Part shown: in pieces, positions 1,737-60,400 of the stretch
Position numbering within the stretch: position 1 is the first letter of the stretch
Layout of the letters: every line of letters starts with the position of its first letter
Source: Cucumis sativus
Taxonomy: Eukaryota; Streptophyta; Magnoliopsida; Cucurbitales; Cucurbitaceae
Length of the DNA stretch: 64,000 nucleotides
Reading direction: 5' to 3'
NCBI RefSeq assembly: GCF_000004075.3
Contig: NC_026660.2
Span: 29,701,498-29,765,497 of the forward strand
The notes under the pieces: model-generated
What the model was told of the DNA's origin: nothing
Database searches by the model: none
What the model saw: the letters and a program-made list of their open reading frames with translations, nothing else
Position numbers and translations under genes: made by a program

Positions 1737-1778
1737 GCATATCCAACATATTGTGCGAATCCCAAACCATTTAAATAA
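1737..1778 (+). promoter_or_regulatory. Core promoter module of MIR399 copy A
   Basis: Three elements stand in order: GCATATCC (P1BS, 1737-1744), TGCGAATC (1754-1761) and TTTAAATAA (1770-1778), a likely TATA element. The same three occur before copy C at 4906-4948 with starts offset by 17 and 17 bases, against 17 and 16 here. A CCAACTCTCTCA string follows at 1803-1814 and probably lies near the transcription start. P1BS is a known PHR1 site; the role of TGCGAATC is unknown to me. Confidence 0.65.
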
Positions 1779-1861
1779 TTGTGGAGAGTGTTCTGGGAAT
1801 TCCCAACTCTCTCATGTAATTTGAACAACAGTATTATTTTTCAGAAGAAGTAGCCAAGAAT

Positions 1862-1984
1862 AACAGTGCGAGTCTCTATTGGCAGAGATTTATTATTATC
1901 TCAAAGAAAAATAAAAAAATATTTTTGTTTTTGCTTCTTTTTTCGATCTTCTCCTTCTTCTGCCAAAAGAGACTTGCCCTGCCA
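1862..1984 (+). ncRNA. MIR399-like precursor hairpin, copy A
   Basis: The 3' arm at 1961-1981 begins TGCCAAAAGAG and ends TTGCCCTG. This is the miR399 pattern apart from A instead of the usual G at position 8. The 5' arm at 1864-1886, containing GTCTCTATTGGCAGA, pairs with it over about 20 of 23 positions plus a G:U pair. The loop of roughly 75 bases is AT- and pyrimidine-rich. miR399 guides cleavage of PHO2 mRNA and is induced by phosphate starvation through PHR1, which fits the upstream P1BS sites. The 29 bases around the mature sequence are the same in copy C. The family is clear; processing and expression are inferred. Confidence 0.85.
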
Positions 1985-1996
1985 TTCCATTCAGCT

Positions 1997-2028
1997 ACAC
2001 ACACACACACACACACATACACACACAT
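1997..2028. repeat. (AC)n microsatellite
   Basis: An AC dinucleotide run with one AT interruption directly follows the copy A hairpin. Copy C is also followed by a shorter ACACAC run, so the repeat probably belonged to the duplicated unit. Confidence 0.9.
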
Positions 2029-2029
2029 A

Positions 2030-4200
2030 TGACCTTCTTCAACATCGGCTAAATGCTATAATTCAGAGTAATTCATTTCTCTCCTCTCTTTATCTTTCTT
2101 TTATAATGAATATATATATCCATATGAAATAAAATTTTAAATTTGAATAGTTTTTTCGTGGATGGGTTATACAGATTTTCGGAGAAGCCATGGATTTATT
2201 TGTTCTGGAAAAATGGTGGTTTAAATGTGAGGAAAAGGACAGGAGAGAATTGGAATCGTGTTGACGAAAAGTTTGCTGCAAGGAGAAGCGAAGTGTATGT
2301 CACATATAGCTCTCTTTTGAATTAAAAGAGAGAGGAATATGTATTATTGTTTCAAAGTTTTTGTCTGTCGTTGGAGTTATTCTATTCCATGGCCGTGGGG
2401 CACAAAGGAATGTCCATTAATTATTATTTTTGAGTTGGTGAATCAACTGATCTCAAATAATAATATCTCCCCATCTCCTTCAACAAATTTTCTCAATCCA
2501 AATGAAATATTTCATATTACAAGTAATTACAATTATTATTATTTAACATGCCCTTAATTAGGAGAGAGATTGTAGGTTTTACAACACAAGAATGAATCGT
2601 CCTACGTGAGAGATATATGGAACCCTTTGATATAAACTGAACAACTATAATGAATCTTAATTATGAAACTCATGCATGGACCAAAAACGAACAAATTCAA
2701 TTTCATTTTTAAAAAAATTTAAATTTAACTCTTTCAACTGTTTTTCTTAAGATATAATTACAACTTTAATCAATTTAACATATAAAAGGGCGATTAAATA
2801 AAAACATGCTAGAAAGAACAAAACTGTCCTCCCTAATTTGAACATGCATACATACATACATATATATATACACCTCTCAATTATTATGTATAACTTTTTA
2901 AATAAAAACAAAAAACAAAAAACAAAAATGCAATTCATCAATGGAAATAAGAGGGAAATTATAATATTCATAAAAAGAGTACGTGACACTCTAGATTAAA
3001 TAGTTGGAACAATTAATTGAAACAACTCATTATAATTAGGTAATAGAAAGCAAACAATAATGGTAAAAAAAAAAAATTGAACTTTTTGGAGTGTGGATCA
3101 AACATATACCTAAAATTTCACCCATCAAATTATTTTTTAGTATTGAGAATTTTTTCCCCAAAGTACGAAGCTATAAATGCAACATATAACAAGAGTAATA
3201 GTCGTAGTATGTTTTTTTTTCATTAAAAAAAAACAATGCTTTTTCTATATGTATTAAATGAAGTAATTGTATATGATTAATAGGTAATCTTATGGGGACT
3301 AATTGCTTCATTACGGACGTCTCGACTTACTCATGTCGTCAATCAACTTAAATGAAAGTCTGAAAGTGAAAGCTACTTATTCTTATCCATGCATATCTCA
3401 ACTTAAGTTCCAACATTATAGTCCTTATAGCAAAAACTTGGTTTTACAACTCTAATAAAATTCCCACCTTTCACATTCCCAGTTGTCTATTCAATTTTTA
3501 TAGACATATTGCATGCTGTCACTTTAATTTGAATCAATATTTTCATTATATTTTATATAAAAAATGACGAAAAATCAAAATTACAATAATATAAACAATA
3601 AACCCATTTAGTTATTTAAGAATTCTACTACTCAGATTCCAAAATTTTGTGGCAGTTTTGGGTGTGATTTAGAACATTTGATTAATTACAAGCTGTTCTG
3701 CAAAATTTAGTAAAAGAAAACAGTTTAGACTAAAAGAGCTGTGTGAAATAAAAAGCAAATTTGTATGAATTATGTGGGAAATAGACAATAGATCATATCT
3801 GTTTGAAGAAAATATAAAAGACAGTGAAGGGTACATAAAACATTCTATGAAGATTTCACGAGGAATATGGGTTTTAAATTTTGAAGACTGCAATTATAGA
3901 AAATGTTGATGGTGAAATTAAAGAAAGAAAAGTTTAGGGATAATTCAAGAATTGAGGTTAAGTTAAATATATTAAAGATGGGTGCGCTTGGCTGCTTTGT
4001 ATGTGTAATATGCGGATCGTAGATGTGGCAAATAGTTGACATGAAGAGCATCTACCCCAGGAATTTGCATATCCATATATGAAACCCAACAAGATATAGG
4101 CATTCAGGAATTATATATTAAATATTCCTTTGAAGAATTATCTGAAGAACATGAATTGATATTCACCTTTATCTTTTACCAAAGACGTGAGAGTGGGGGA
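2030..4200. other. Spacer between MIR399 copies A and B
   Basis: AT-rich sequence with short open frames only (up to about 80 codons) and no recognisable family. GCATATCC at 4067-4074 fits P1BS and lies about 260 bases before the copy B hairpin. No transposon ends were seen. Confidence 0.45.
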
Positions 4201-4205
4201 GAAAA

Positions 4206-4248
4206 GCACATTCTAGTTTAATGTGCGAATCCTCAAATGCTAAAGAAT
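4206..4248 (+). promoter_or_regulatory. Worn MIR399 promoter module before copy B
   Basis: The octamer TGCGAATC recurs exactly at 4224-4231. Eighteen bases upstream, GCACATTC (4206-4213) differs from a P1BS by one base. About 16 bases downstream, CTAAAGAA (4240-4247) stands where copies A and C have TTTAAATAA. The arrangement matches the intact modules, but two of the three elements are mutated. An intact P1BS at 4067-4074 might partly compensate. Confidence 0.5.
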
Positions 4249-4327
4249 GTGGAAATTATTGGAAATAATGGACTTTACGTAAACAAAAAACAAACATGAA
4301 ACAACAAAATGGTAGAGGAGAAATTAT

Positions 4328-4442
4328 AACAGAGCCAAGTCTTCTTTGGCAGAGATAATTAATGAATTTATAATGCTCTAAATTCCACACCTGACTAACA
4401 AATTTTACTTTCATGAAGTGCCAAAACAGAACTGCCCTCTTA
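4328..4442 (+). ncRNA. MIR399-like precursor hairpin, copy B (diverged)
   Basis: The 3' arm at 4419-4439 begins TGCCAAAACAGAA and ends CTGCCCTC. The 5' arm at 4330-4352 contains GTCTTCTTTGGCAGAG and pairs with it at about 14 of 21 positions, with mismatches in the middle. The 5' arm is closer to a canonical miR399 star than the 3' arm is to a canonical mature sequence, so the 3' arm has changed most. The loop is about 65 bases. It is probably a paralogue of copies A and C. Whether it still gives a functional miRNA is uncertain because of the central mispairing and the worn promoter. Confidence 0.65.
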
Positions 4443-4905
4443 TACTTATACACATATTCGATTATTCATTTTGTTTTAACTTAAACAAAATGCTACAAGT
4501 AAAAACTTAAAGATAAATTTGCAATATAATTAACGTATCATAAAAGACGAGGAAATTGAAAAAAGAAAAATAGAAAATCTCAAATTTGAATGGTGTTATT
4601 ATAATAGAATATAGATATTAGATATAGAAAAGAAAGGTTCTTTTTGGTGTAATGTTTAAGTTATGAAGTAAGAAATAAAAAGAGGTGGTTGAATAGGCTT
4701 TGAGTTAGTGGGGTTATGTTGAGAAAGTAATTGAGAGTTGAAAGTGATGAGTAGAGTGGCGATGGAGATGAAGATATGATGCCAACATATATATACATAA
4801 AACATAAAAGTAAAATATTATACTCCATATATCCCAAGAATATTATGATCCTAAATGAAAGGACATGTGTGAAGAAATGCCCTAATTGTACGGAATAAGG
4901 GTCAG

Positions 4906-4948
4906 GCATATTCAACTTCAAATGCGAATCATGGAGGGCTTTAAATAA
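4906..4948 (+). promoter_or_regulatory. Core promoter module of MIR399 copy C
   Basis: GCATATTC (P1BS, 4906-4913), TGCGAATC (4923-4930) and TTTAAATAA (4940-4948) stand in the same order and almost the same spacing as before copy A. CCAACTCTCTCA follows at 4964-4975, near the likely start of transcription. The hairpin begins about 60 bases after the TATA-like element. Confidence 0.65.
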
Positions 4949-5008
4949 GGCCTCTTCCACAACCCAACTCTCTCAACAAACATCATTATTAAATGGAATG
5001 AGAAGAAT

Positions 5009-5083
5009 GAGAGGGCGGATCTTTTTTGGCAGGTGGATTCATCTAAATTAAAATTGATCTGCCAAAAGAGACTTGCCCTGCCA
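5009..5083 (+). ncRNA. MIR399-like precursor hairpin, copy C (compact)
   Basis: The 3' arm at 5060-5080 begins TGCCAAAAGAG and ends TTGCCCTG, identical to copy A over the 21 bases and several flanking bases. The 5' arm at 5011-5033 contains GGGCGGATCTTTTTTGGCAG and pairs with it nearly throughout, using several G:U pairs. The loop is only about 25 bases, much shorter than in copy A. The identical mature sequence and the shared promoter point to a fairly recent tandem duplication or to selection on the mature sequence. PHO2 is the expected target. Confidence 0.85.
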
Positions 5084-5283
5084 TTCAACTCTTCTGCAAC
5101 CACACACACAAGTATATATTTTCTTGTTGCTAAACAAATTACTCCTCTTCTACTTCCTTCTTACTATCCATGTGTAGGCAAAATTTTCAATTACTATGAA
5201 TACGGGGATGTCCTAAAATTTGTATCAAACCAAAAAAATTAGAAGTCATCAATAATACAAAGTAGTTTCTAAAAAGATGGCAA

Positions 5284-6271: not shown

Positions 6272-6405
6272 TGTGTAGGCAAATCTCCTTTGGCAGAAAC
6301 TAGAAAGCATATATATAGTGAAGCAACAAATAAAAAAAAAAAGTGGGTGATTGAGTTAATAATATATATGTGTGTATGTGACCCATTCAGACTTGGCACT
6401 GTAAA
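6272..6405 (+). ncRNA. Decayed MIR399-like hairpin, copy D
   Basis: The 5' arm at 6275-6295, containing GGCAAATCTCCTTTGGCA, is a near-perfect canonical miR399 star. The expected 3' arm appears to be CCATTCAGACTTGGCACTG at 6383-6401. It retains the AGACTTG and CTG parts of copies A and C but has lost the TGCCAAA seed, and the arms pair at only about 10 of 18 positions. No P1BS, TGCGAATC or TTTAAATAA module was found upstream. On the minus strand 6295-6275 reads like a canonical miR399, so antisense transcription is a possible alternative. Most likely it is a dying paralogue. Confidence 0.45.
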
Positions 6406-31846: not shown

Positions 31847-32531
31847 CTATAAAAAAAAATCGATTATATAAATAATATTTTTCCAGGGAGGAAAAAGATT
31901 GCAATTTAGGAATTGTTTAGAGCAAACAAAAGGTTGAGGAAAAGGAGAGGCTCTAATGTGACTCTTTGGCTTTCCAGAGACACCAAAACCAAACCCTAGA
32001 TTTTTCAGTCCCAAGTAGCAATTCTTTTTCATTTTTATTCACTCAAATTTCAGATCCAACCACATAATACTGAAATCTCCAACACTCTTTCCTCCCCCTT
32101 CCATCTTTTTCCCGCTGGTTAGTATCCTTTTTTCTTCTTCTTTCTCCTAATCATTTCTCCCTAATTTCCTTTTTATTTCTCTTCTTTACTTCTTTCTTCT
32201 TCACTTTTATTCCACTCATCCTTTCTTTTCCACTATTTCGTCTTTCCGAAGGATGTAGGTGGATCATACTCTTTTTTTTTTTTTTCTTCTGTTTCTTTTA
32301 CTTGATGCATATAAGTTCTTCATACTTTGGATGTGAAATTAGTACATGGTTTTTGTTTTGACGCTTTTTATGTTATACCCGTTGCAGATCTTGCCTAATT
32401 TTTGACATTCAAGAAGGAGGAAAACACGTTCAGTGATTTGTGAATACTCTCTTGAGATTCTTTGTGAAGCTTTTTTTAAGTTGGATTTGATTTTTTTTTT
32501 CTTTTTTTTTTTTTTACTTAGACTGTTAAAG

Positions 32532-34565
32532 ATGATGTCCAAATCGTATACCAATCTTTTAGATTTAGCTTCTGGGAATTTTCCCATTATGGGTCGTGAG
32601 AAGAAGCGACTTCCACGAGTAATGACTGTTGCGGGGGTAATATCAGAGCTTGATGATGATCAGGCAAATAGTGTGACTTCTGAGGGACCTTCGTCAGTTG
32701 TGCAAGACCGAATAATTATTGTTGCCAATCAGCTTCCTATTAAAGCTAAGCGTAGACCGGACAATAAAGGGTGGAGTTTTAGTTGGGATGAAGACTCTTT
32801 GCTCTGGCAGCTTAAGGATGGTTTACCTGAAGATATGGAGGTTTTGTATGTAGGATCTTTGCGGGTGGATGTTGATTTTTGTGAACAAGAAGATGTATCA
32901 CAACTTTTGTTGGAGAGGTTTAAGTGTGTTCCAGCGTTTTTACCTCATGACATTTTATCTAAATTTTATCATGGTTTTTGTAAGCAGCAATTGTGGCCGC
33001 TCTTCCATTATATGCTTCCGTTCTCTGCAACTCATGGTGGTCGGTTTGACCGCTCTCTGTGGGAAGCATATGTAGCAGCAAATAAAATTTTTTCTCAAAG
33101 GGTGATTGAGGTCATAAACCCAGATGATGACTTTGTATGGATTCATGATTATCATCTAATGGTGCTACCCTCCTTCTTGAGGAGAAGGTTTACAAGACTG
33201 AGAATGGGCTTTTTTCTTCACAGTCCATTTCCTTCATCAGAAATATATAGGACATTGCCAGTGAGGGAAGAGATTCTTAAGGCACTTTTGAATGCAGACC
33301 TTATTGGTTTTCACACTTTTGATTATGCTCGACATTTCCTGTCTTGTTGTAGTCGGATGTTGGGTTTGGAATATCAGTCAAAGAGGGGCTATATTGGCTT
33401 GGAATATTTTGGAAGGACCGTGGGGATTAAAATCATGCCTGTTGGAATTCACATGGGCCAGATGGAGTCAGTGTTAAGACTTGCTGACAAAGACTGGAGG
33501 GTACAGGAGCTCAAGCGACAGTTTGAAGGAAAAGTTGTGTTACTTGGAGTTGATGATATGGATATTTTTAAAGGGGTCAATCTGAAGTTGTTGGCAATGG
33601 AACAGATGCTGCGGCAACATCCAAAGTGGCAGGGAAGAGCCGTTTTCGTACAGATTGCAAACCCAGCTAGAGGAAGAGGGAAAGATCTCGAGGAAATACA
33701 AGATGAAATACAGGAATGCTGCCAGAGAATTAATGAAAGTTTTGGACAGCCAAATTATGAGCCAATTGTGTTCATTGATCGGCCTGTTTCTCTTGTTGAA
33801 AGAGCGGCATATTATACCATTGCTGAATGTGTTGTAGTCACAGCGGTGAGGGATGGTATGAACCTAACTCCTTATGAGTACGTTGTCTGCAGGCAGGGAT
33901 CCCCTGGATCAGATTATAGCTCAGAAACAAATGGACCACAAAAGAGCATGCTAGTCATATCTGAGTTCATGGGATGTTCCCCTTCTCTTAGTGGTGCAAT
34001 ACGGGTTAACCCATGGAACATTGAATCCACTGCTGAAGCATTGAATGAGGCAATATCAATGGCTGAAGCTGAAAAGCAATTGCGCCATGAGAAGCATTAT
34101 AAATATGTGAGTACACACGATGTGGCATACTGGTCAAGGAGTTTTTTCCAAGATATGGAAAGAACTTGCAAGGATCACTTTAGAAGACGGTGCTGGGGAA
34201 TTGGGTTGGGCTTTGGTTTCAGGGTTGTAGCACTTGATCCTAACTTTAGAAAGCTGTCTATTGATGCCATTGTAGCTGCATATTCGAGGTCTAAAAGGAG
34301 GGCTATACTTTTGGATTATGATGGCACTGTCATGCCGCAAACTTCAATCGATAAGACCCCAAGTCGCCAGGTGATTTCAATCATAGATTCACTTTGTGAT
34401 GATGTTAGGAATACTGTTTTTGTGGTCAGTGGAAGAGGGCGTGAAAGTTTGGGCAATTGGTTTTCTCCTTGCGATAAACTTGGAATTGCTGCCGAGCATG
34501 GCTATTTTATGAGGTATTGTCTTTTTACTTCCTCCCCTTCTACAATCTCTTCTCCTCCCTCCATC

Positions 34566-34596
<31 letters not shown>

Positions 34597-36996
34597 AAAA
34601 AAAAAAACTGTCCATCCATCTGCCTTTCTGTGTGTGTATATATTTTTTCCATATATATTGCCGATGTCTGAATCTTGTAAATTTATCAGGTGGTCTGCCG
34701 ATAAGGACTGGGAGAATTGTGGTCAAGGTAGTGATTTTGGCTGGATACAGATTGCAGAGCCAGTCATGAAATTATACACAGAAGCTACTGACGGCTCATC
34801 TATTGAAACCAAGGAAAGTGGCTTGGTGTGGCATCACCAGGATGCAGACCCTGATTTCGGTTGCAGCCAGGCAAAAGAATTATTGGACCACCTTGAAAGT
34901 GTGCTGGCCAATGAACCAGTCGCTGTAAAAAGTGGTCAGTTTATTGTAGAAGTAAAGCCACAGGTATATTCTTCTACTTTAAATTTCTGAAATAGCATGG
35001 ATTAGGTTTTTTTGTTTCATTTAAACCAATGACAACGCCTTGTTATGTTCCATGTTACATTGTGTTAACTTTTATCTTATTATGTTTCGGTTGTTTTTCT
35101 GGTTTGGGTTTAAATCTGGTAGGTGTCCTCTCCTGACTTTATAGCTCTATTGCCCAGTTTTAGGATTCTCCATTAAATTGCTTTGGGAAGGTTTTCGAAG
35201 TGGGTATTTGGAACAATTTAAATCTTTTTCATCCTAGTTTTTTTTTTTTCACGTGCATTGATTGTAAAGATGAGAAAACTATAACCTTGTAGGATAATCT
35301 CCCATATACTATAGTTTTATGTCATCAGGGTTGGATGGGCAGAAGGGTGTAAGAGTTAATGGAGGATAGGAAGACAAGTATCTTGTCGGAAAATCTAGCA
35401 TATACGATGGTTTTTTTCTTTTACGCAATCAGGGTTGGATGGGCTACAATAGAAATGTGTAATAGTTAATGGATGAGTAAGATAAAACCGTACTTAAGTG
35501 TCTTAATTTCGTGAACCTATGCCATATTAGCTCAAATAAACAGCAACTTTGATGCTGAGAATAGTTTACCAATCAGTAATCAGTATATTTAACTGTTGTA
35601 GTTATTAATATAATTAGATTATTCTTAGGAGATATTATTCTTAGGAGATATTATTCTTAGGAGATATTATTCTGGAGATATTATTTGATATTATTTCCTT
35701 AAGTGTATTTCTCTATGGTTATATATAGGCTTGTATCTCTATTAAGTAATTAATGAAATATAGATTAATTCCATAAAATCAACAGTAGTATCCCCTCTTG
35801 TACGCTTCAACTTTGTCAGAAATGCAAAATTCCTGTTGGGAAGAAGAAAATGTGAACATTACATAAAAGTTCATCGAGATTGTCACTACATGGCGATGGC
35901 AAAAAACAAAACCCATAATTATTTAAAGAATTCACCGCCAAAGTTGGAAGTGAACAAATAAACAAATTTTACTTTAAATCTCAGTGGTATTATAAAGTTA
36001 TATTTCAGAGCAAAAGACATTTATAGACCATTATAGAGAGAGGAATTTGGCGACTTTTGGACATGTGAAGATTTCTTTGACACTATTTTGTACATAGAGT
36101 AGCTGATGGAGAACCGACCAAGAAACCAATTAAATGGGAAGAGGGTAGATGGGGGTTAAAAACTTGCATGAGCCCCCACTCGTTTTTTGGGTGGCTTTAT
36201 GCTTGTGACGGGAAGAAAGGTTTTCCCACGATATATAGTTAAACAAAAGTTTGGAGGAGAAACAATCACTCCCAGTCTCTCAGTTTTATAAAACAGAGAA
36301 TTTGGATCAATTGATCTAACGTGATGTGAATATTTTTCTTTTGGACAATGGCTTTGGTTCAAAGTTCTAATTATGATTTCCATCTTTTTCCCTTCTTTTT
36401 TTTCATTCATACGCACACCCACACACGTTTATATATATGATATACCTATTTTTTTTACCTTTGTTCAGATTGAAAATGGCCTGTGTTTTTGTGCTTTTGC
36501 ACACGATTATCTGTAGTGTGCACATGTGTCTGTGACCAAGATAAAAGTGTCGTTAACTTTGAGTATGGCTTTAGTCCGCGGTTAAATATGTTGAATTTAA
36601 TTGTTTTAGCTTTATATTTAATACATTCCCGAAACATCAAAGCTCTCTTGCCTATCAAGATTGTGTGAAGACTAATTTCAAATTCTGTTGTAATTTTAGG
36701 GAGTCAGTAAAGGCTTGGTGGCAGAAAAGATCTTCACGTCAATGGCAGAAGCAGGAAGACGGGCTGATTTTGTGCTTTGCATTGGTGATGACAGATCTGA
36801 TGAAGACATGTTTGAGATAATTGGTAATGCAGTGTCAAGTGGCTCCCTCTCTTCCAATACATTAGTTTTTGCCTGCACAGTTGGACAGAAACCAAGCAAG
36901 GCCAAGTATTACTTAGATGACACAACTGAGGTCATTAATATGCTTGAAGCCCTTGCAGAAGTTTCGGACATATCTTCTCCTCCAGAATCCCCTTGA
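32532..36996 (+). CDS. TPS7: Class II trehalose-phosphate synthase, TPS7 type
   Basis: Exons 32532-34513, 34690-34963 and 36700-36996 give about 850 residues, the length of Arabidopsis TPS7. The N-terminal two thirds is the GT20 synthase domain (from DRIIIVANQLPIKAKRR to about residue 540), with HDYHLMVLP and SPFPSSEIYRTLPVREE. The last third is the HAD-type phosphatase domain: DYDGT motif at residues 595-599, SGRGRESL, and GDDRSDEDMF in exon 3. Class II proteins carry both domains but are mostly regulatory, linked to trehalose-6-phosphate and SnRK1 sugar signalling. The start MMSKSYTNLLDLASGNFP matches TPS7 rather than TPS6. A TTACTTAG acceptor just before the ATG indicates an intron in the 5' UTR. 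Intron 1 carries a C22A21 tract and intron 2 a possible solo LTR. Confidence 0.95.
34565..34607. repeat. C22-A21 homopolymer pair in TPS7 intron 1
   Basis: 22 C followed directly by 21 A, about 50 bases after the donor and about 80 bases before the exon 2 acceptor. The tract is very prone to slippage and to sequencing error, so its true length is uncertain. Confidence 0.9.
35594..35784. mobile_element. Possible solo LTR in TPS7 intron 2
   Basis: The 191-base segment starts TGTTG and ends CAACA, an LTR-like inverted end. It contains a TATATATAGG promoter-like stretch and a TGTATCTC region before the end, typical of short Copia LTRs. A 16-base unit (TTATTCTTAGGAGATA) is repeated about three times at 35620-35690. 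The five bases on either side do not match, so no target duplication supports it, and no internal region is present. Confidence 0.4.
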
Positions 36997-39535: not shown

Positions 39536-40933
39536 TTAGCGACTCGGCGGCGATAAATAAACCCGACTCTGAACCACCGTTTCTCCAATTTTGAAACCGG
39601 GAACTACGGTGAAACGGACTCGGGGCTCTGACCCGGATCCAACGGCGGAATCGTTCATATCCGCCGGTGAAAATAAGGTCTCTTCGGTAACGCATTGCAT
39701 GTAAACTTCAGAGAATCTGCTGTTTTTTCTTACTTGGAAGATGGTGACGTCGTTGTGCAGTGAAAATGCTAAACATCGTAGAAGCCATACGCGCTTCGAC
39801 ATCTCGGCGAAGGCGGCGAAGAATGTAGTGTCGGGAACGCCGCCGGAGTTCAGGATTTTCCGCTGGTTTAGATTTCCGAAGAGAGAGCATTCCATTTTCG
39901 CGTGGACGAGTTGGAGGTATTTGGAGCGGGTGAATTTAGCGAATATGGAGTTGGGGTTTTGAGAAATGAAGATTTTAGGGTTTACTGGTTTGAGCTTCTT
40001 GAATTTTTCGAACATTTGGTGGTTTAGCTGCTTATCATGGGTAAGGGAATCGTTGTGGAGTATGAAATTGGCGTCGGCTGTAAAACCCTCGAACATGGTT
40101 TTGCAGACGAACGACTCGAAAGCGAAGCTCCTATGGGTTGGCTCTGGGAACTTGGTGTCGGAATCGACGATGCATTGGACAGCGGCGTTGAGGTCCCAGC
40201 TTGCTGATTCCATTTCGCGAATCATCAATTTCACGAAATTTCTGATGGATCTTAAGGTGTAATGGAGGAATTGGGCGAAATGGGTTGGATTCAGCAGTGG
40301 AAATTGAAGATTATCAAACATGGATAAAGAACCACTTGCGTTCAGCTTCTTCTCCAACGACTTGTTGAACGAAATTGATTCGCCTAGCTTTTTCTTCAAA
40401 GCGACAATGCCGCTATCCTTCTGCTCCGATTCGGCTTGCAATTTCTTAATAGTTATTTCATAGGTTTTCATCAAACTTTGCTGTTCTTGAATCTCTGAAA
40501 GCATTAACGTCACTTGGGGTGAGAGATCGAGTTCTTTCTTCAAAAAGCTTCGTTTCAACTCTGAAATAACCTTTAATTCGTCTACCACCGCCTGGTCTGC
40601 AGCTTGAATTGCGTCGCTATTGTAAGGACTCTGTGCCATTTGAAGCTCAGCGTAAGCTGCTTTGATTGAAGTAACGCTTGCAAAAAGCTTCGCAACCAGA
40701 GCTTCCATGACTGCCCTGTTTCGAGCTTTGACATCTTCTTCAGTTCTCTCAAAGATTTGGGATTTTCCACCATGAATACTCGAATCCTCCTTGAATTTGT
40801 TGTGAGAAACCAAAACGCAGATCCCATTACTAGATGCAATCCGAGTTGCATTCCTGAGACTGATTACCTTCTGAAATGTCTTGGCAAATCTGGTCTTGCT
40901 CTTCTTAGATGGTTTGGGTTTGATTGTTTCCAT
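39536..40933 (-). CDS. DUF641/GIL1 family protein (IRKI/GIL1-like)
   Basis: An uninterrupted frame of 465 residues starts METIKPKPSKKSKTRF. The DUF641 part (about residues 70-190) has MEALVAKLFASVTSIKAAYAELQ in two pieces (MEALVAKLFASVTS and IKAAYAELQ), followed by a predicted coiled coil (LMKTYEITIKKLQAESEQK). The C-terminal GIL1 part follows, with FAQFLHYTLRSIRNFVK, FESFVCKTMFEGF and WLLRCLAFS. GIL1 is needed for the loss of negative gravitropism of hypocotyls in light, and IRKI interacts with the receptor kinase IRK. Which one this is I cannot say. The frame can be extended 13 codons upstream to 40972, but MET is the better start because the extension is hydrophobic and lies where the leader should be. 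It is intronless. Confidence 0.85.
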   Translation of the reverse strand: METIKPKPSKKSKTRFAKTFQKVISLRNATRIASSNGICVLVSHNKFKEDSSIHGGKSQIFERTEEDVKARNRAVMEALVAKLFASVTSIKAAYAELQMAQSPYNSDAIQAADQAVVDELKVISELKRSFLKKELDLSPQVTLMLSEIQEQQSLMKTYEITIKKLQAESEQKDSGIVALKKKLGESISFNKSLEKKLNASGSLSMFDNLQFPLLNPTHFAQFLHYTLRSIRNFVKLMIREMESASWDLNAAVQCIVDSDTKFPEPTHRSFAFESFVCKTMFEGFTADANFILHNDSLTHDKQLNHQMFEKFKKLKPVNPKIFISQNPNSIFAKFTRSKYLQLVHAKMECSLFGNLNQRKILNSGGVPDTTFFAAFAEMSKRVWLLRCLAFSLHNDVTIFQVRKNSRFSEVYMQCVTEETLFSPADMNDSAVGSGSEPRVRFTVVPGFKIGETVVQSRVYLSPPSR

Positions 40934-43900
40934 AAGAAAGAAAGGGAAAAAAAGAAAAGAACACACACTCAAAACAGAGTTATATTGAACTCAAAAGAGA
41001 GAGGTTCCAATAGAAAAATGGAAGTGAAAATTTTTGGTGATTGGCGAAGGAAGACAGAGGAAGTAGTAAAAGGGTAAAGGAAGAAAAAGTGATTAAAAGA
41101 GTAGAATTTTCTTTGCAAAAAGCAAAAGCAGGAACTTTGACTATATCTTAGATTAAGGCCGGAAATGGAGGTCCAGGTCTAAAAAAAGCAAAGATTTAAA
41201 GTGCAGGTGTGGAGAAAAGAAAAAGAAAAGGAAGCCATAGCCATAGCCATAGCCATAGCCATAGCCATTGCCATTGCCATTGCCATTGCCACTGCCAAGA
41301 AATTAAAGAATGTAATGGAGTTACAGATTATGAGTACAGCTACAGAACCCCATGGACAATGAATTTGAAGAAAGTTTGCTCTTCAAGCTCAATTTAATAA
41401 TATGGTATTTAAGAATATATTTAGGTGGCGCCATCAGCCTCAGCCTGGAGGTATGATATTATTATTACAAATATTTGTGAAGTCTACGTTTGTAAAGTGA
41501 TTGATTAGGTTTGGCTGTGATCAAATCATGGACCCTACACTAATCATTACAGTTACAGCATTTTCATTTTACTAATCTTCTAAACTTAGATGTATCTGAG
41601 AGGCTCATCTTCTTGTGTGTGTCTCTCTCAATAATTACAAATTCTTTCAATACACTTGACTTGAGAATATGTAGAGCCAAAAAAAGACGAAGGGCATAGA
41701 GCCATACTCAAAAATAGTTATTCATGTCATGTGATAAGTGGGAATGAACCATTGGTGTAGCAAAAAAGAAAAAGATTTCAGAAAAGAAGAGAATGAACCA
41801 AAGCTGTATTCTTGTCACCTATCTTCTTTCGGTTCCCTTTTGTAACGTCTTCATTTGGGTCCCATAAAAATACAAAAAGCAACATTTAATTTGTCTTTAA
41901 AAAACTATTACATAGCTGATTGAATGTCGTTTGATATTTTCTTCTTTTTTAATGGCTATAAGAGTGATACATACAATTTTCATGGTAAAAATGATGGCAA
42001 AAATGACTATTTTGGGGGCACAGGATTTGGTTTAAGTAAAAAAAAAAAAAAGGTTGTGGAGTGAAGAAGGAGGAATTAATATGCAAAGTTAAAAATGAGG
42101 AGTCTTCATTAAGAGAGTTGTCTGTATGGCCAAATGGGTCCTTTCTGCTTCATATTTCCGACACAAATGAGACAAAATTAGTGCAGTAAACTCAGTTAAC
42201 TTTCAATGGCGGACACCACAATGTTTGCTTCTTCTCTTAACCATCAATCCTACATCCTTCCACAAATTTGCTTCTAATATTTCTATAGTCAAATATATCA
42301 ATCTTTGATTACTCCTAATCATCGATCTAAATTGATGCTTCAATTCTCTGCCTAGTAATTTGGACTCAAATATTGTGTTTTGCTTCTCCTATTTTCTTTT
42401 CTGGCATGCAATATAGTCGCTTTTCTTTGGTGTATAAAATATGGATAATTTAATGATTATAATGAAGGCACTAAGCATGCTTCAATCGATTGGTGACATC
42501 AATTTACATTCACATGAAGACACAAGAAGCAAAAAGTTTTAATATTGGGTTCATTTTGGCCTTTCCCTGTTTAGCTTTTGTGGGTTTTCTTCTTAAGTCA
42601 ATGCATATGACCCCCCATTCCAAAATTGTAGTTGTTAAAAATGACAATAATAAATGACAAAGAAAACAGTAAAATGTTTAAACAAAGAGAAAGCCAGAGA
42701 TAGAAAACAAAATTTGACTGAAAAGACAAAAACTCATTACATTTGAAAGTCTCTTAATCTAATGCAATTATATAATAGATTAATTCTAAATAGGAACTCA
42801 TTAATTATACAATTGAAAACTTTAAAAATCTATAAAAGTTTGAAAGGTTTTAGAAGCTTATTTGACAAAATTAAAAGTTTACAGAGTAATCGAACACTTT
42901 TGAAGTTTACAAATAAACATTCAAAATTCAAAGTTTTAACATTTTAGTTTAACCCACCAATATATGACTTAAATATTGTTTCTTTTGTAATATTTTATGA
43001 TATAGATTTGCAATATATTGGATCATGATTTATTTATGTCAATTCTTTTGGGTAACCACATTTTGAATTTTTAAATTTAAAATCCAGTATCAATAAAACA
43101 CATGAAAGAAAAAATATCTTCAAAGAGTGTGTCAAGCTGGTATTAAATCCAAATCATAAGGTAGATATTTGAATTGAGATTAAAAACAAAAAAAAGAGGT
43201 CTTACATACATAATATATATATATATATAACTAACAGTACTATCAAGTGTCCAAAAAGTAGTGGAATAAGACTAGGATGACAGGAGGTGTGAAAGTGGAA
43301 GCCAGACCAGGCAAGCCTAAGGTTGAAATTTAGAAAAAGAATTCATACTTGCAATCAAGAACTGTGGAGAATGTTGAAGCTTTTGGGGATTAGCGAAGCA
43401 CTTTGGTAGGCCTATTTCTATCCCCAAGTCCAAGTGCTTTGCTTTAACCCGTGGGTCTTCACAAACTCACCTCAAAAGACTCAATTCATAGCCTTCACCT
43501 CTTCACTATTACAAAGAAATTCAAAAGTTCTTTTCATTACCAATACCACTCCTTTATATCCATCACCGTTAACAATTTTCACTTCAACTAACCTCATACA
43601 TTGTTATATAATATACACCCAACCATTTCAACATTCAAGGTTTTTTACAGAAACTTTCTTTTTAATACAACACGATTTGTTTTTAGATTTGCTCATTCTT
43701 CCTTTGTTTTTAGATTTGCTCATTCTTCCTTTGATACACCTGAATCAGCCTGATCTTCAGATCAGACATATTGATTCTTCTTTGTCTTTGACAAGCAGTG
43801 ACCGCTGTTTAAAGTAGAGAGTTGTGTCTGATGATACTTTAACACTGTGAAGCACAAACAAAGTAGGGGGAAAAACTCAGAAACCATCAATGGTTTTTTG

Positions 43901-53339: not shown

Positions 53340-54429
53340 AGAGTTGAGGGGCAAAGGGTGTAGTTCAATAAATTTGGATGGAAAAGGGGTATTTTGGGTT
53401 GAGAAACGGACACACCGATTCACTGCTGACGTGCCCTCCGGTGGGGGAGGTGTCTCTGAATCTGCCTGCAACAGATCTCACCCAACCCCTTTTCTTCTTT
53501 CACTTCCCACTTCCCACTTCCCACTTCCCACTATACACTCTTTTCCTCTTACTCCCCCATTCCTCTGAAGCGGAGTTTCCTGTGTTTTGGACTTCTCTAT
53601 CACCTTCCTCTCTAACTGAACCTCGTGAGCTTCATGGGAAGCTTGCTCTGAGATCTGAGCTTTAATTTTCCAACCGGTTACATTTGATACTGCCTTTCCC
53701 CTCTTCTGATTCAGGTGATTCTTCTTCTTTTCTTTTTGCTTTTTTCCATCTTCTTCAACCGTTTCGCTTTACCCCACCCCTTTGTGTTTTCCTTTTCAAT
53801 ATTATCTTATCTTCTTTCACTCTCCTCCTCACCTTGTTCTCTTCTGTGTTCACAGACACCAACCGTCATTTTTCAAGGGTTTAAGAGGACTGTACGGACG
53901 AGCTTTTGATTCTCCATGAGTATTTTCTCTGTGTTTTTCCCGGTTCGGGTTTTTTCTTTTGTTTGCTTGCTGAAGCTGGAGTGAGCTTGTCGCCGGTATG
54001 CATTGGAGTTTGCTTGTGCCTGCTCATTAGGTTTCAGTAGGAGTAGCATTCGTATTGCTGCTACTTCCGCTTGATTCTCCAGTGATAAGCTTCATGGTTT
54101 ACTCGACCCTGGTTTTCTGGGGTGGGTGATTGGGAGTGGTTTGCCGATGGATTTTCTTTGTTTCTCATTTTCAACTTGGCGGAAAGTTGACGGTGTTGGA
54201 ATATAAATGCTTGACATGGATTCGTTGAAATAGAATCTATAACTTTTAACTTTCGTTGTTTAGATAGGAGGACCTCTGTTTGCCTAAATTGCGGGATATT
54301 TGGGATTCATTTTTTGTCATAATTGTGGAGATTTGACCTCGCGTTGTCTGATTTGATAATGCAATATATTTCGATTCGTTTCCTTAATTGTCAAGAAAAA
54401 TTTCGACCAAATGCATTTATGTTCTCATC
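53340..54429 (+). other. Leader and promoter region of the STICHEL-like gene
   Basis: The sequence is less AT-rich and pyrimidine-rich. It probably contains 5' UTR exons and perhaps an intron, as donor-like GTGAGC and acceptor-like TTTCAG sequences occur, but I could not fix them. A seven-base repeat (CACTTCC)4 is at 53501-53530. Short frames at 53344-53909 are proline/serine-rich and not recognised. Confidence 0.45.
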
Positions 54430-57400
54430 ATGACTAGAGCTGTCCGCGATAGAATTCTCAAGGAGGCAAATGGTGATATTAGTGATCATCTACGTAACCA
54501 CATTCACTTGACGAACTGCATTCACTTGAAGAATCACATGCACAAGCACAGCCCAATCTTGGCTGACAGGTCTCTTATGAGGGATCTCATTGTCCTTCAA
54601 AGGTCGAGATCTCTCAGGGACCCTTCAGCAAGTCCTCCCTCATGGCAATCTCCCTCAATAACGGATCTGCCATCAAGGATGGGCGAAAATAATGTTGTGA
54701 TTCGTGAAGGAAGAAGGTCGGTTGGAACCGAGAGTCGAAGGGTAGGTAGGACAATTTCCGGAAGTTCTCCACCCTTGGGAAGTTTTGCCACATCAAAAGT
54801 TGCTCCGGCTGAGGTGAATGTGGGCGCGGATGGGGTGACAGCAGTTAGTGAGCACAGTGTTAAGAGTGAAATCCGAGATGGTAGAAGAATTCGGCGAGAA
54901 GAGTCAAGTAGGAGGAGTGATAGAAACAGTGTTTTGGATGGCAACGAAGAATCTTCACCTGTTCATGATGCGCATCTTCTGCATGAGGTAATTTCGAGGA
55001 AATCAGAATCTAAAGATAGAAAGAGTGAACAGAAGGATAAGCAGGTTAGGAGCATTCCATTTAAGACACTATCGGAGCAACTAAATTCTGCTCCAATAGA
55101 TAGTGATGATATTGCATCTTCAAGTGCTGTACATGGGAGACGATCTCAGCAGGAGAGAATCGCCGATGAACCTGAACCCAGCTTTCGTGGGAACTGCAGT
55201 GGATTGAATAGGGGTAAAAGGCGAAAATTTCGAGGTACAAGGAGAAGTCGTATGAATTTAACTTCCAGAGACACTGGAGTTCAAAATGAATTGTCGGTAG
55301 CTTCTAATACATTAGCTCATGGTTCGGCTCATTCAAAGCATAAAATGGAAGAAGAAAATGAAAATTATGGCAACAAAAATGTCATTGGTGGACCTAGAAA
55401 TGGGTGTGGTATGCCTTGGAATTGGTCAAGAATTCATCATAGAGGGAAATCGTTTTTAGACATGGCTGGAAGGAGTTTTTCTTGTGGCATTTCAGACTCG
55501 ATGTTAAGAAAATGCAGTCCAACTGCACGTGGGAGAGGCATTTCTGGCACACCCATAGCATCTGATCACTCAAGCTCATCTGCTAAATTTGATGCCGAGG
55601 CTCTACCTTTACTTGTTGAGGCATCTGGGTCCCAGGAAAGCATTGAAAATGCAGGCTGGCAACGAGATTACTCTGGGGAATTGGGAATATTTGCGGATAA
55701 TTATATTAAACACGAAGTTGATTCGGACCTTGCTTCAGAAGCAAGGTGTAGTAACCGAAGAAGAACAAGAGGCCATCATCGTGCTAGACATCAAAATCTG
55801 ACACAAAAATATATGCCACGAACATTCAAAGATTTGGTGGGACAACATTTAGTAGCCCAAGCTCTTTCAAATGCTGTTTTGAGGAAGAAGGTTGGGTTAC
55901 TATATGTTTTTTATGGTCCTCACGGCACAGGAAAAACATCCTGTGCTCGGATATTTGCTAGAGCATTGAACTGCCAGTCTTTGGAACATTCCAAACCTTG
56001 TGGATTATGCAATTCTTGCGTTGGATATGACATGGGAAAAAGCAGGAATATAAGGGAAGTTGTTCCTGTTAGTAATCTCGACTTTGAGAGCATTACCGAA
56101 CTACTTGACCATATGATAGCTTCTCAGCTCCCATCACAGTATACAGTGTTCATTTTTGATGATTGTGACAGCTTTTCTGCTAATTGCTGGAGTGCCATTA
56201 CAAAGGTCATTGACCGAGCACCCAGACGTCTAGTTTTTGTCCTTGTGTGTTCAAGTCTAGATGTTTTACCTCATATAATTATATCCAGGTGCCAGAAATT
56301 CTTTTTTCCAAAGCTGAAGGATGCTGATGTTATCCATACTTTGCAGTGGATTGCAACCCAAGAAAATTTAGAAATTGATAAAGATGCACTAAAACTTATC
56401 ACATCAAGATCAGATGGATCATTGAGGGATGCTGAAATGACTCTTGAACAGCTTAGTTTACTTGGTCAGAGAATTTCTGTTCCTCTAATTCAGGAACTGG
56501 TGAGTTATATATTTGAATTTTAATGATTGCAATAGTTGGAGATGAAAGTTTCCATTCACACTTTTCAGAGGCTACTATTTTATGTCTTGATTCTTATGAT
56601 TGAAATATTTCTGCCTACTTTGAAGTTTGATGTGAAATTTTTACGCAGAGCAAAATGGATCTTCCGCTGCAACTCTGTAATTGTCTTATCTTATATTTCT
56701 TGACCTTTTTGTTGCTGTGGAATAGTGAAAACCTAAATTTGTCCTTTCATTGACATATTGTGATCACAAATTTGGTCTACGCTGTTTCATAACTTCAGCT
56801 GAAACAAACAATGCTGTCTTTTATCTTGTTAACATGACCATATATTTTCTTGTGTGACAAATCGTTCTTTTTCTTGTTTTAGGTCATTGAAGTAACTTTC
56901 ATGGATCTCTCTCTCTCTCTCTCTCTAAAAAAGAGTAACTTTTATGGAGTGTTGAGGGGACCTGAGATCCGCCTATATGTCTTCTTGAACATCTTGATTT
57001 GGTTTTCAGAACTTTTAATAGTTTCTGAAATGGTTTTCTCAACTAGTGAAGCATGAACTTGCTTAAAATTGCAACATTTTTATTCTGCAATGTTTCAAGT
57101 GAAAGACTTCTCATATTGACAAGCTATTTTGACCGATTGTCTGTTTTTTTTTTCCTGTGCACTTTGCGCCTTCCAGCATAAGATAAAATAGGCTAGTTTT
57201 TGGTGATTAAAATTCTGGCTCTGGTTACAATAGTAAAAATTATTTTTAAAAAAACTATAAAAATCACAGCACCCTGCAATGTTGTTTGATTCATATAATT
57301 TCCACTGCATGTAACTTTCTGATTGTTTCAATTCTGATAATTACTATGTACCCAATTGGTTTCCAGGTTGGGCTCATCTCTGACGAAAAACTGGTGGATC

Positions 57401-60400
57401 TTCTTGATCTAGCTCTTTCTGCAGACACAGTTAACACTGTAAAACACTTGAGGTTAATAATTGAAAGTGGTGTGGAGCCAATGGCTTTGATGTCACAAAT
57501 CGCAACTGTGATTACTGATATTCTTGCCGGTAGTTATGATTTCAAGAAAGAAAGACCTCGGAGGAAGTTTTTCCGACGTCAGCCATGTAAGTCAAAGAAC
57601 ATGTTATATATGCGATGGACTTCATTAATTCAGTTTACTGTAACTAGATTGTTGGCCTGTAAAGTTTATAGTCCTGTTTTTTCCTTGGATGTATTAACTA
57701 GGATTTAGTCCATTTTCAGATTTTTGTTAAATGTTGCTTATATTAAGCTTTATATCCGGAACTTCATCTTTTGCTGCCTTTCGTTGGTTTAAAATTTGAT
57801 TAATTAACTAATTTCAAGTCTTAAGCATCTATCAAGCTGATGATTTTTTTTATGGCATTCTAGTATCCAAGGAAGATATGGAGAAGCTACGTCAAGCTCT
57901 GAAAACTTTATCTGAAGCCGAGAAGCAATTAAGAATGTCTAATGATAAATTAACTTGGCTTACAGCTGCATTACTTCAACTTGCTCCAGATCAGCAGTAT
58001 TTGTTGTCCAGCTCTGCTGAAACAAGCTTTAATCACAGTCCCTTAGCGCTGAATAATGTGAGTGGCAGGGGTGTATCAAGGAACATTGATCAGCATGGTC
58101 AAATATCTGCAGGCGAGAAAGGATTGCCAACAGATGTTAAGTTTGCTGGTCATTCTGACTCTAATAGAATTTCTAAAGGCATTAGTTTAGACAGAAAAAG
58201 ACACTCTGGCGTTGGTGTGTCTCCTCAGCTGACTGTCGCAAGCGCTACAGATTTAATGAAGTCTAGTGGAAAGCAGGTTTCTGGTACAACTCATAAAGCC
58301 ATGGAAGAAATTTGGTTGGAGGTGCTAGGAAAAATTCGGATGAATAGTATTAAAGAGTTTTTGATACAGGAGGGGACGCTTGCATCAGTGAGTTTTGGTG
58401 CAGGTACATTTTTCTAAATCATGTTCACAGTTTGCTGTTCCATTCCTCTTTATTTCACTTCATTTATTTAAAAAAGAACATTTCGTAAGTCGATTTGACT
58501 GTAAAAATTTAGAAGCGTCTTAAAATTATGTATTGTAATTTAACATCTGATGCAATGAGTTGACTTTTGACGATATACCATATTTTTGGCAGCACCAACT
58601 GTACGTTTGATATTCAATTCACATAATGCAAAATCAAAAGCAGAGAAGTTGAGAGAGCAAATCTTACAAGCGTTTGAATCTGCTCTTGGGTCCTCAGTGA
58701 TAATTGAAATTAGATATGAATCAAAAAGGGATACTCTAGTGGGGAACCATTCATCAGTTACTTTACCGGCATCCAAGAATGGTCTATTGCAGATTAGGGA
58801 TATAAGTGGTAATATGTCTCAAGCTCAGTTGACGCACTATGGTTCTGGTGAAGTTGGAAGAGGCGAAATTGTTGAAATAGATGCTTCTCCGAGGGAAGCC
58901 AATAATCAGAGAGAACCTAATCAAAGGAATTTAGAAGGTTCACAAGGAGAAGTATCAGTCTCTCGGAAGAACTCAACCATGTCATCAATTTCAGAAAGAA
59001 GAGAAGCTGGAGCTCAAAGTCGGAGTCAAAGTATTGTGAGAAGCAAAGTATCTCTGGCACATGTTATTCAGCAGGCAGAAGGATGTTCACAGCGAAGTGG
59101 ATGGTCCACACGCAAAGCTGTATCTATAGCTGAAAAACTCGAGCAGGAAAACTTGTACGTAATGCTATCTTCAAGATTTCAATTTTTCTTGTGTTGTGAT
59201 GTGTGGTTTCTGGAAGAGCAAAAGCATCTCTTATGCATTAGGGAACTCAAAACAGTTTTCTATTTTATAGAACGAAATTTCTTTAAAATGTGTTCAATAA
59301 CCTCTTTCTAGCCTTCTTCTTCTTCTTCTTCTCTCCCTCTCTCTCTCTTTCTTTTCCCTCGTTTTGTTTTGTGCAGCTCATATATTTGAATGTTATACAC
59401 AATCACATTAAAGTTTAGAGTCATTTGATCACAACCTTTGAAAACAAAAACATACGAGTCTTTCATACAAACATCCTCTTACTTTTTAAACACAGCATAT
59501 AGTGAACCTGTTCGTGAAGGTATTATCTTACTGGCCTAATTGTTCGGCTGTTGCTTTCCTTGGCTGGGATTAGTCCTATGAAGCTACATGTACGCTTAGC
59601 AACATGAGGTAGATTATAGGCTGTTAGGAAAAAATCCAACGTCAGGAAATAATGAAGTTCCGAAAGTATATATACGTAAGGGACTTTTAAAATAGATCAA
59701 TATTAGCCTTTAGAATTCACAAGCTCCTTCAATCCAATACTATGTACAAGAGTGAACAGTTAATTGCTAAGCAACTGTGGCTTATTTAGTTTTATTAAGC
59801 TACTGTGGATGGTTTTTCACCACTCACTCACAATTGCAAAGGTTATGACAATTAGTTTCTACGACCGGAGATTTGTTGCTTCCTTGTGTTTCACGGCCAA
59901 AGCACCTGCTTAATCTTATTACTTCTTTTTTTTTACAATTTTTGCAGGAGACTTGAGCCTCAATCAAGAAGCTTATTGTGCTGGAAAGCATCTAGAGTAA
60001 CTCGGCGAAAGGTACTGCAGGAAGGAGATATAAATAACATATATTTTGCATGTTTCAGTTTTGTTATGAAGTTATCTCTTTGAAAAAAAGCATTCAATAT
60101 TTTGTTATAATTAAAAATGCATATGAACTTTGCAAGGATGGATGCAGTTCATTTATTACCTAATGAAAAATTGTGCCGGTGCTCTCAATAATCAAGTGAT
60201 TAGTGATCATGTAGTTAAACTAGGTTAGGTTTGATGATGAAGAAGAATGTTGTACCATTTATGGTCATTTTACTGTCAAATAGCTTCACTTGAGAACTCA
60301 TGGCTTACTTAGAAGATGAATCGGTCTTCTTTTCTTTGAAGAGGTTATAATCATCCGTTTAATGGTGTTGTCCTATTTGTTCTTTTTGCTAAGACATCCT

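Follow-up and report, generated by a model that had tools for sequence, protein, structure and literature searches.

A putative companion site with a small RTGC core beside P1BS in most MIR399 promoters found in Cucumis sativus

The window (the whole 64-kb stretch of DNA analysed here) contains three MIR399-type copies, designated A, B and C, which are located within about 3.4 kb. The features of these copies, in window coordinates, are the following:

1737 to 1744, forward strand: P1BS of copy A, GCATATCC, read directly; the PHR1 binding-site consensus is GNATATNC
1754 to 1761, forward strand: octamer TGCGAATC of copy A, 17 bases from the P1BS start, with GTGC from 1753 as RTGC core
1770 to 1778, forward strand: TTTAAATAA of copy A, read directly, probable TATA element
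1802 to 1814, forward strand: CCCAACTCTCTCA of copy A, common with C, near the probable transcription start, putative role
1854 to 1991, forward strand: MIR399 hairpin of copy A, Rfam RF00445, 65.4 bits
4206 to 4213, forward strand: GCACATTC of copy B, a P1BS one base off, read directly
4224 to 4231, forward strand: octamer TGCGAATC of copy B, 18 bases after the degenerate P1BS
4326 to 4440 (limits approximate), forward strand: decayed MIR399-like hairpin of copy B, weak Rfam match on the minus strand only, minimum free energy -16.9
4906 to 4913, forward strand: P1BS of copy C, GCATATTC, read directly
4923 to 4930, forward strand: octamer TGCGAATC of copy C, 17 bases from the P1BS start, with ATGC from 4922 as RTGC core
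4940 to 4948, forward strand: TTTAAATAA of copy C, read directly, probable TATA element
4963 to 4975, forward strand: CCCAACTCTCTCA of copy C, near the probable transcription start, putative role
5001 to 5090, forward strand: MIR399 hairpin of copy C, Rfam RF00445, 57.0 bits

A profile search with RF00445 was extended from the window to the genome (226.6 Mb) and detected at least eight loci at E ≤ 0.001, a lower bound given that the best 44 of 10379 candidates were scored. Copies A and C are in the window, E and F on contig 1, H, I and J on contig 5, and G beside the window (G000:C6:29700558-29700672, minus strand), about 0.8 kb to its left and divergent from copy A. Both A and C carry miR399 on the 3' arm (TGCCAAAAGAGACTTGCCC at 1961 and 5060, respectively) of a hairpin that reaches the RF00445 cut-off of 57 bits, a value which C equals. 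Copy B falls below this cut-off, with only 25.1 bits on the minus strand, and its fold energy of -16.9 kcal/mol compares with -41.8 and -45.2 kcal/mol for the A and C hairpins. The eight RF00445 loci (A, C and E to J) and copy B make up the set of nine promoters discussed here. As revealed by blastn, hairpin-arm similarity groups F with A and C, and E with G, which suggests an old duplicated cluster. A lone near-perfect miR399 complement has also been detected on the forward strand at 6277-6295 (TGCCAAAGGAGATTTGCCT on the minus strand), where no good hairpin accompanies it; this site could be either a MIR399 copy of the minus strand that has decayed or a stray target or mimic-like site. Neighbouring genes in the window include one of the trehalose-6-phosphate synthase type (32406-34769), one of the GIL1/IRKI type (DUF641; 39536-40990) and one for a STICHEL-type clamp-loader protein (54388-58417).

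An earlier note on this DNA had described a three-part promoter shared by these copies, and direct reading of the sequence has borne this out base for base. The starts of P1BS, TGCGAATC and TTTAAATAA are spaced by 17 and 16 bases in A (1737, 1754, 1770) and by 17 and 17 bases in C (4906, 4923, 4940), with both P1BS being exact matches to GNATATNC upstream of the putative transcript, and the two copies additionally share CCCAACTCTCTCA. Copy B retains the octamer exactly next to a P1BS with one deviating base, as had been described, and a further exact P1BS occurs upstream of it at 4067; the TATA element that had been considered mutated in B was a generous reading, there being no recognisable TATA at about 4240. 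In all nine MIR399 promoters, the 330 nt preceding the hairpin include one or more exact GNATATNC. The fixed distance to the TATA element is restricted to A and C and was rejected as a general MIR399 feature, with TATA-like words at other distances in F, G, I and J.

The octamer occurs three times on both strands of the 64 kb (shuffle mean 0.85, with 5 of 100 shuffles reaching three), and all three occurrences are upstream of MIR399-type hairpins, intact in A and C and decayed in B. It is also the longest word common to the three 160-nt promoters, where a common word of eight or more bases appears in 32 of 3000 shuffled triples, while the 13-base CCCAACTCTCTCA common to A and C is equalled in one of 3000 shuffled pairs. 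Between B and A, an 11-base match, TGTGCGAATCC, has been retained. Given the persistence of this match and of the octamer, B may be a pseudogene in which a promoter word has been preserved. The surrounding sequence is indeed as unalike as had been stated: outside the motifs the flanks show approximately chance identity (ungapped comparison in 20-base steps), and comparison of the 9.5-kb cluster with itself by blastn gave a sole match, 53 bp of the 3' hairpin arm of A and C at 87% identity. Since the flanks have diverged to chance, the promoter block has outlived its neighbourhood.

Enrichment of the octamer near P1BS had been put forward as one test of its role, and such enrichment is absent genome-wide. 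In the 226.6 Mb, TGCGAATC occurs 0-25 bases after an exact P1BS at nine places, with spacers of 9 (A), 9 (C), 11, 16, 18, 19, 23, 24 and 25 bases. By rough arithmetic from word frequencies in 257 kb (58 P1BS, one exact octamer and 75 words that differ from it by at most one base, or three per word), roughly 5-16 places are expected by chance, and the octamer is therefore not enriched near P1BS. A and C are the only places in the genome where it lies 9-10 bases from an exact P1BS. Reversed patterns gave two places against nine for the octamer and 37 against 72 for the broader pattern P1BS-N9/10-TGCSRA, differences that do not constitute evidence of enrichment because the reversed words themselves differ in frequency (in 257 kb, 58 for GNATATNC and 40 for CNTATANG, 217 and 130 for TGCSRA, one and three for the octamer). 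The broader pattern shows no excess either, with 72 places genome-wide, four of them MIR399 promoters (A, C, F and G), against about 86 expected. As a general phosphate-starvation element, the octamer was thus rejected for this genome, considering the lack of excess near P1BS and the five negative SPX regions described below.

Comparison of the nine promoters indicates that what is conserved is smaller than the octamer and seems peculiar to MIR399. Among MIR399 promoters, TGCGAATC is restricted to A, B and C, and TGCSRA is found in A, B, C, F and G; of the eight octamer bases, only four are matched in G. For the 11 P1BS of copies E to J, about 0.02 TGCSRA would be expected and two are observed (F and G), a comparison that flatters the result because TGCSRA was chosen after F and G had been seen. 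The 330-nt regions preceding the nine hairpins contain 15 exact P1BS in total, and at seven of these, corresponding to seven of the nine promoters, TGC starts 17 or 18 bases after the P1BS. The aligned words with the core in forward orientation are GTGCGAAT in A, ATGCGAAT in C, GTGCCGAT in F, GTGCCGAG in G, ATGCTTAT in I and ATGCTTAG in J, with TGC at +18 in F (TGCCGATC), G (TGCCGAGA) and I, and at +17 in J. Copy E carries the core in the other orientation (ATGCTCTC, TGC at +17), and B has GTGCGAAT beside its degenerate P1BS. In the promoter of H, TGC is absent at +17 and +18, the nearest being at +19 in the other orientation. The earlier proposal of an undescribed cis-element or a duplication mark is thus supported in part: the full octamer is not enriched near P1BS in this genome, while a smaller piece, TGC at +17/18, recurs in E, F, G, I and J.

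A TGC at a given offset is cheap, at about 1% per position, and the excess was assessed against 58 P1BS in 257 kb, drawn from the rest of the window and from selected stretches of two contigs (20 stretches, 10 kb each), which are not promoters. In this background, TGC occurs at +17/18 for four of the 58 sites (Fisher p 0.0008 against 7 of 15). When A, B and C are left out, 5 of 11 sites remain (p 0.004), and collapsing I and J as well, which look like sister copies, leaves 4 of 9 (p 0.009). If R is required before TGC, the counts become 7 of 15 against 3 of 58 (p 0.0003), or 5 of 11 against 3 of 58 without A, B and C (p 0.0018), numbers which are small and concern a consensus, like that of TGCSRA, set partly after looking. 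When all trimers at 21 offsets (8-28) were scanned with no prior choice of TGC, in six lineages (A, E, F, G, H and I), TGC at 17/18 nonetheless came out on top, being present in five of the six; 10 of 400 shuffles performed as well (p about 0.025).

Among other starvation genes, SPX genes were examined. No TGC at +17/18 was detected for the 11 P1BS in the 1 kb upstream of five SPX genes (five of 12 N-terminal SPX matches), one of these five regions being without any P1BS. The shortest distance between the 26 SPX-domain matches and the 72 P1BS-N9/10-TGCSRA sites is 332 kb. As an additional test gene, miR827 was sought by a mature-sequence pattern, which gave no match.

PHR1 sites are common, yet P1BS alone has been reported to be insufficient for a strong starvation response (accessible parts of PMC2936532 and PMC5398999), and the motifs that act as partners of P1BS are poorly defined. 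The MIR399 and MIR827 promoters of Arabidopsis and N. benthamiana contain one to four P1BS, resembling the presence of P1BS in every MIR399 promoter studied here; in its accessible part, that study counts P1BS copies, without a second site at fixed spacing (PMC6296076). Closer parallels are provided by two composite systems, each documented here from the accessible part of its source. In IPS1, P1BS requires a nearby second motif, motif B, whose mutation abolishes the starvation response but which does nothing alone, and a PHR1 partner has been supposed although the protein is not named (Bustos et al. 2010, PMC2936532). The pairing of P1BS with another short motif no more than 25 nt away, insufficient by itself, is similar to the arrangement described here, whereas motif B is GAWGATNC and the MIR399 promoters have an RTGC core at 8-9 bases. 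In the EZ2 enhancer of PLDZ2, the P1BS context likewise includes GCAYCAAA, a conserved motif of the spacer that begins with the complement of RTGC, but EZ2 consists of two P1BS with a 21-28 bp spacer, whereas the modules of A and C have one (PMC5398999). Neither class is matched exactly by the modules: the exact GAWGATNC and the exact GCAYCAAA are both absent from the 330 nt of all nine promoters, and A and C have a single P1BS at the module.

We consider it about an even chance that the pattern represents a MIR399-specific composite of P1BS and a companion site, in a form akin to these known P1BS composites. The serious rival, which is quite possible, is shared descent without function, where A, B and C are tandem duplicates, the octamer is a functionless ancestral leftover, and TGC elsewhere is either ancestral or due to chance. 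The close clustering of the three copies would fit this explanation, as would the confinement of the exact octamer at 9-10 bases from an exact P1BS to this cluster, and the lack of enrichment of both octamer and TGCSRA near P1BS genome-wide. In addition, B keeps TGTGCGAATCC despite a decayed P1BS and hairpin, so that retention in this copy need not mean function. However, the surroundings have fallen to chance identity and an unselected octamer should have been lost with them, while F and G also have TGCCGA at +18. The occurrence of TGC at the same offset in MIR399 copies elsewhere, even though the contig 6 and contig 1 promoters have no blastn match to each other, argues against a pure duplication mark.

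Two other explanations would assign the octamer to a known class of site. It is improbable that it represents the MIR399 form of a known P1BS partner, either IPS1 motif B or the EZ2 spacer motif. Its reverse complement holds GATTC, fitting the GATNC end of motif B, which in Arabidopsis starvation genes is over-represented at distances of up to 25 nt from P1BS (26 against 12.4, from the accessible part of PMC2936532), and the GCAY of GCAYCAAA is the reverse complement of RTGC (PMC5398999, accessible part), a four-letter agreement that is weak and constitutes a lead and not a test. Besides the absence of exact matches, one-mismatch matches occur in six of the nine promoters (A, C, E, H, I and J), and none is within 25 nt of a TGC-bearing P1BS; the one in A is 14 nt before the other P1BS of that copy. 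Less credible still is a NIGT1/HRS1/HHO repressor site through which nitrate would damp MIR399. TGCGAATC does contain GAATC, a NIGT1 core, and NIGT1 joins the nitrate and phosphate responses, but the same source, in its accessible part, reports that a lone GAATC is not bound by the wild-type NIGT1 dimer, for which GAATATTC or GATTC-N38-GAATC is required (PMC7660924). Within the 330 nt examined, GAATC occurs once per copy in A, B and C, where GATTC is absent, F, G, H and I lack GAATC, and none of the 15 P1BS is GAATATTC; a NIGT1/HHO target was rejected on this basis.

Under the composite reading, the sites would serve as core promoters in a small cluster of MIR399 genes, each being a composite module in which a PHR1-type MYB-CC dimer may occupy P1BS, followed by 8-9 bases and a companion site with an RTGC core. 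In A and C, a putative TATA box would follow 16-17 bases beyond the companion and precede a CT-rich start region, with transcription predicted to start near CCAACTCTCTCA. At about 14-16 bases from the centre of P1BS, RTGC is probably read by a second DNA-binding protein or by an additional contact of the PHR complex, and this contact would make its P1BS effective in MIR399 genes. PHR1 binding, the companion factor and a role in phosphate-starvation induction at the MIR399 copies are what we infer from a pattern of sequence seen in few independent lineages of a single genome. It is rather unlikely, though worth stating as a tentative extension, that MIR399 has a cis-code of its own, where P1BS and an RTGC 8-9 bases away are read by a PHR1 partner, unlike in SPX-type targets, and are kept while the surroundings are replaced. 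If a companion site is truly confined to MIR399, it would help to explain how the family is switched on, and the RTGC core narrows the candidate mutation to two to three bases. Among the matches listed in literature searches, in which subscription papers were mostly outside the scope, no description of a P1BS/RTGC pairing was found, making the novelty provisional; TGCGAATC with starvation terms was likewise absent among the matches listed, and GCGAATC with miR399 was found in two papers, as part of a miR403 sequence in one of them.

Paired P1BS words have also been observed at several places. In the promoter of copy G, TGCCGAGA is flanked by two P1BS whose starts are 26 bases apart, and two SPX upstream regions (L040 and L043) have P1BS paired 23 bases apart from start to start (GGATATTC followed by GAATATTC), without an exact GCAYCAAA. 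In the window, two P1BS-type words are found 26 bases apart at 740-773 (GCATATAC at 740 and GCATATCC at 766), about 1 kb upstream of copy A.
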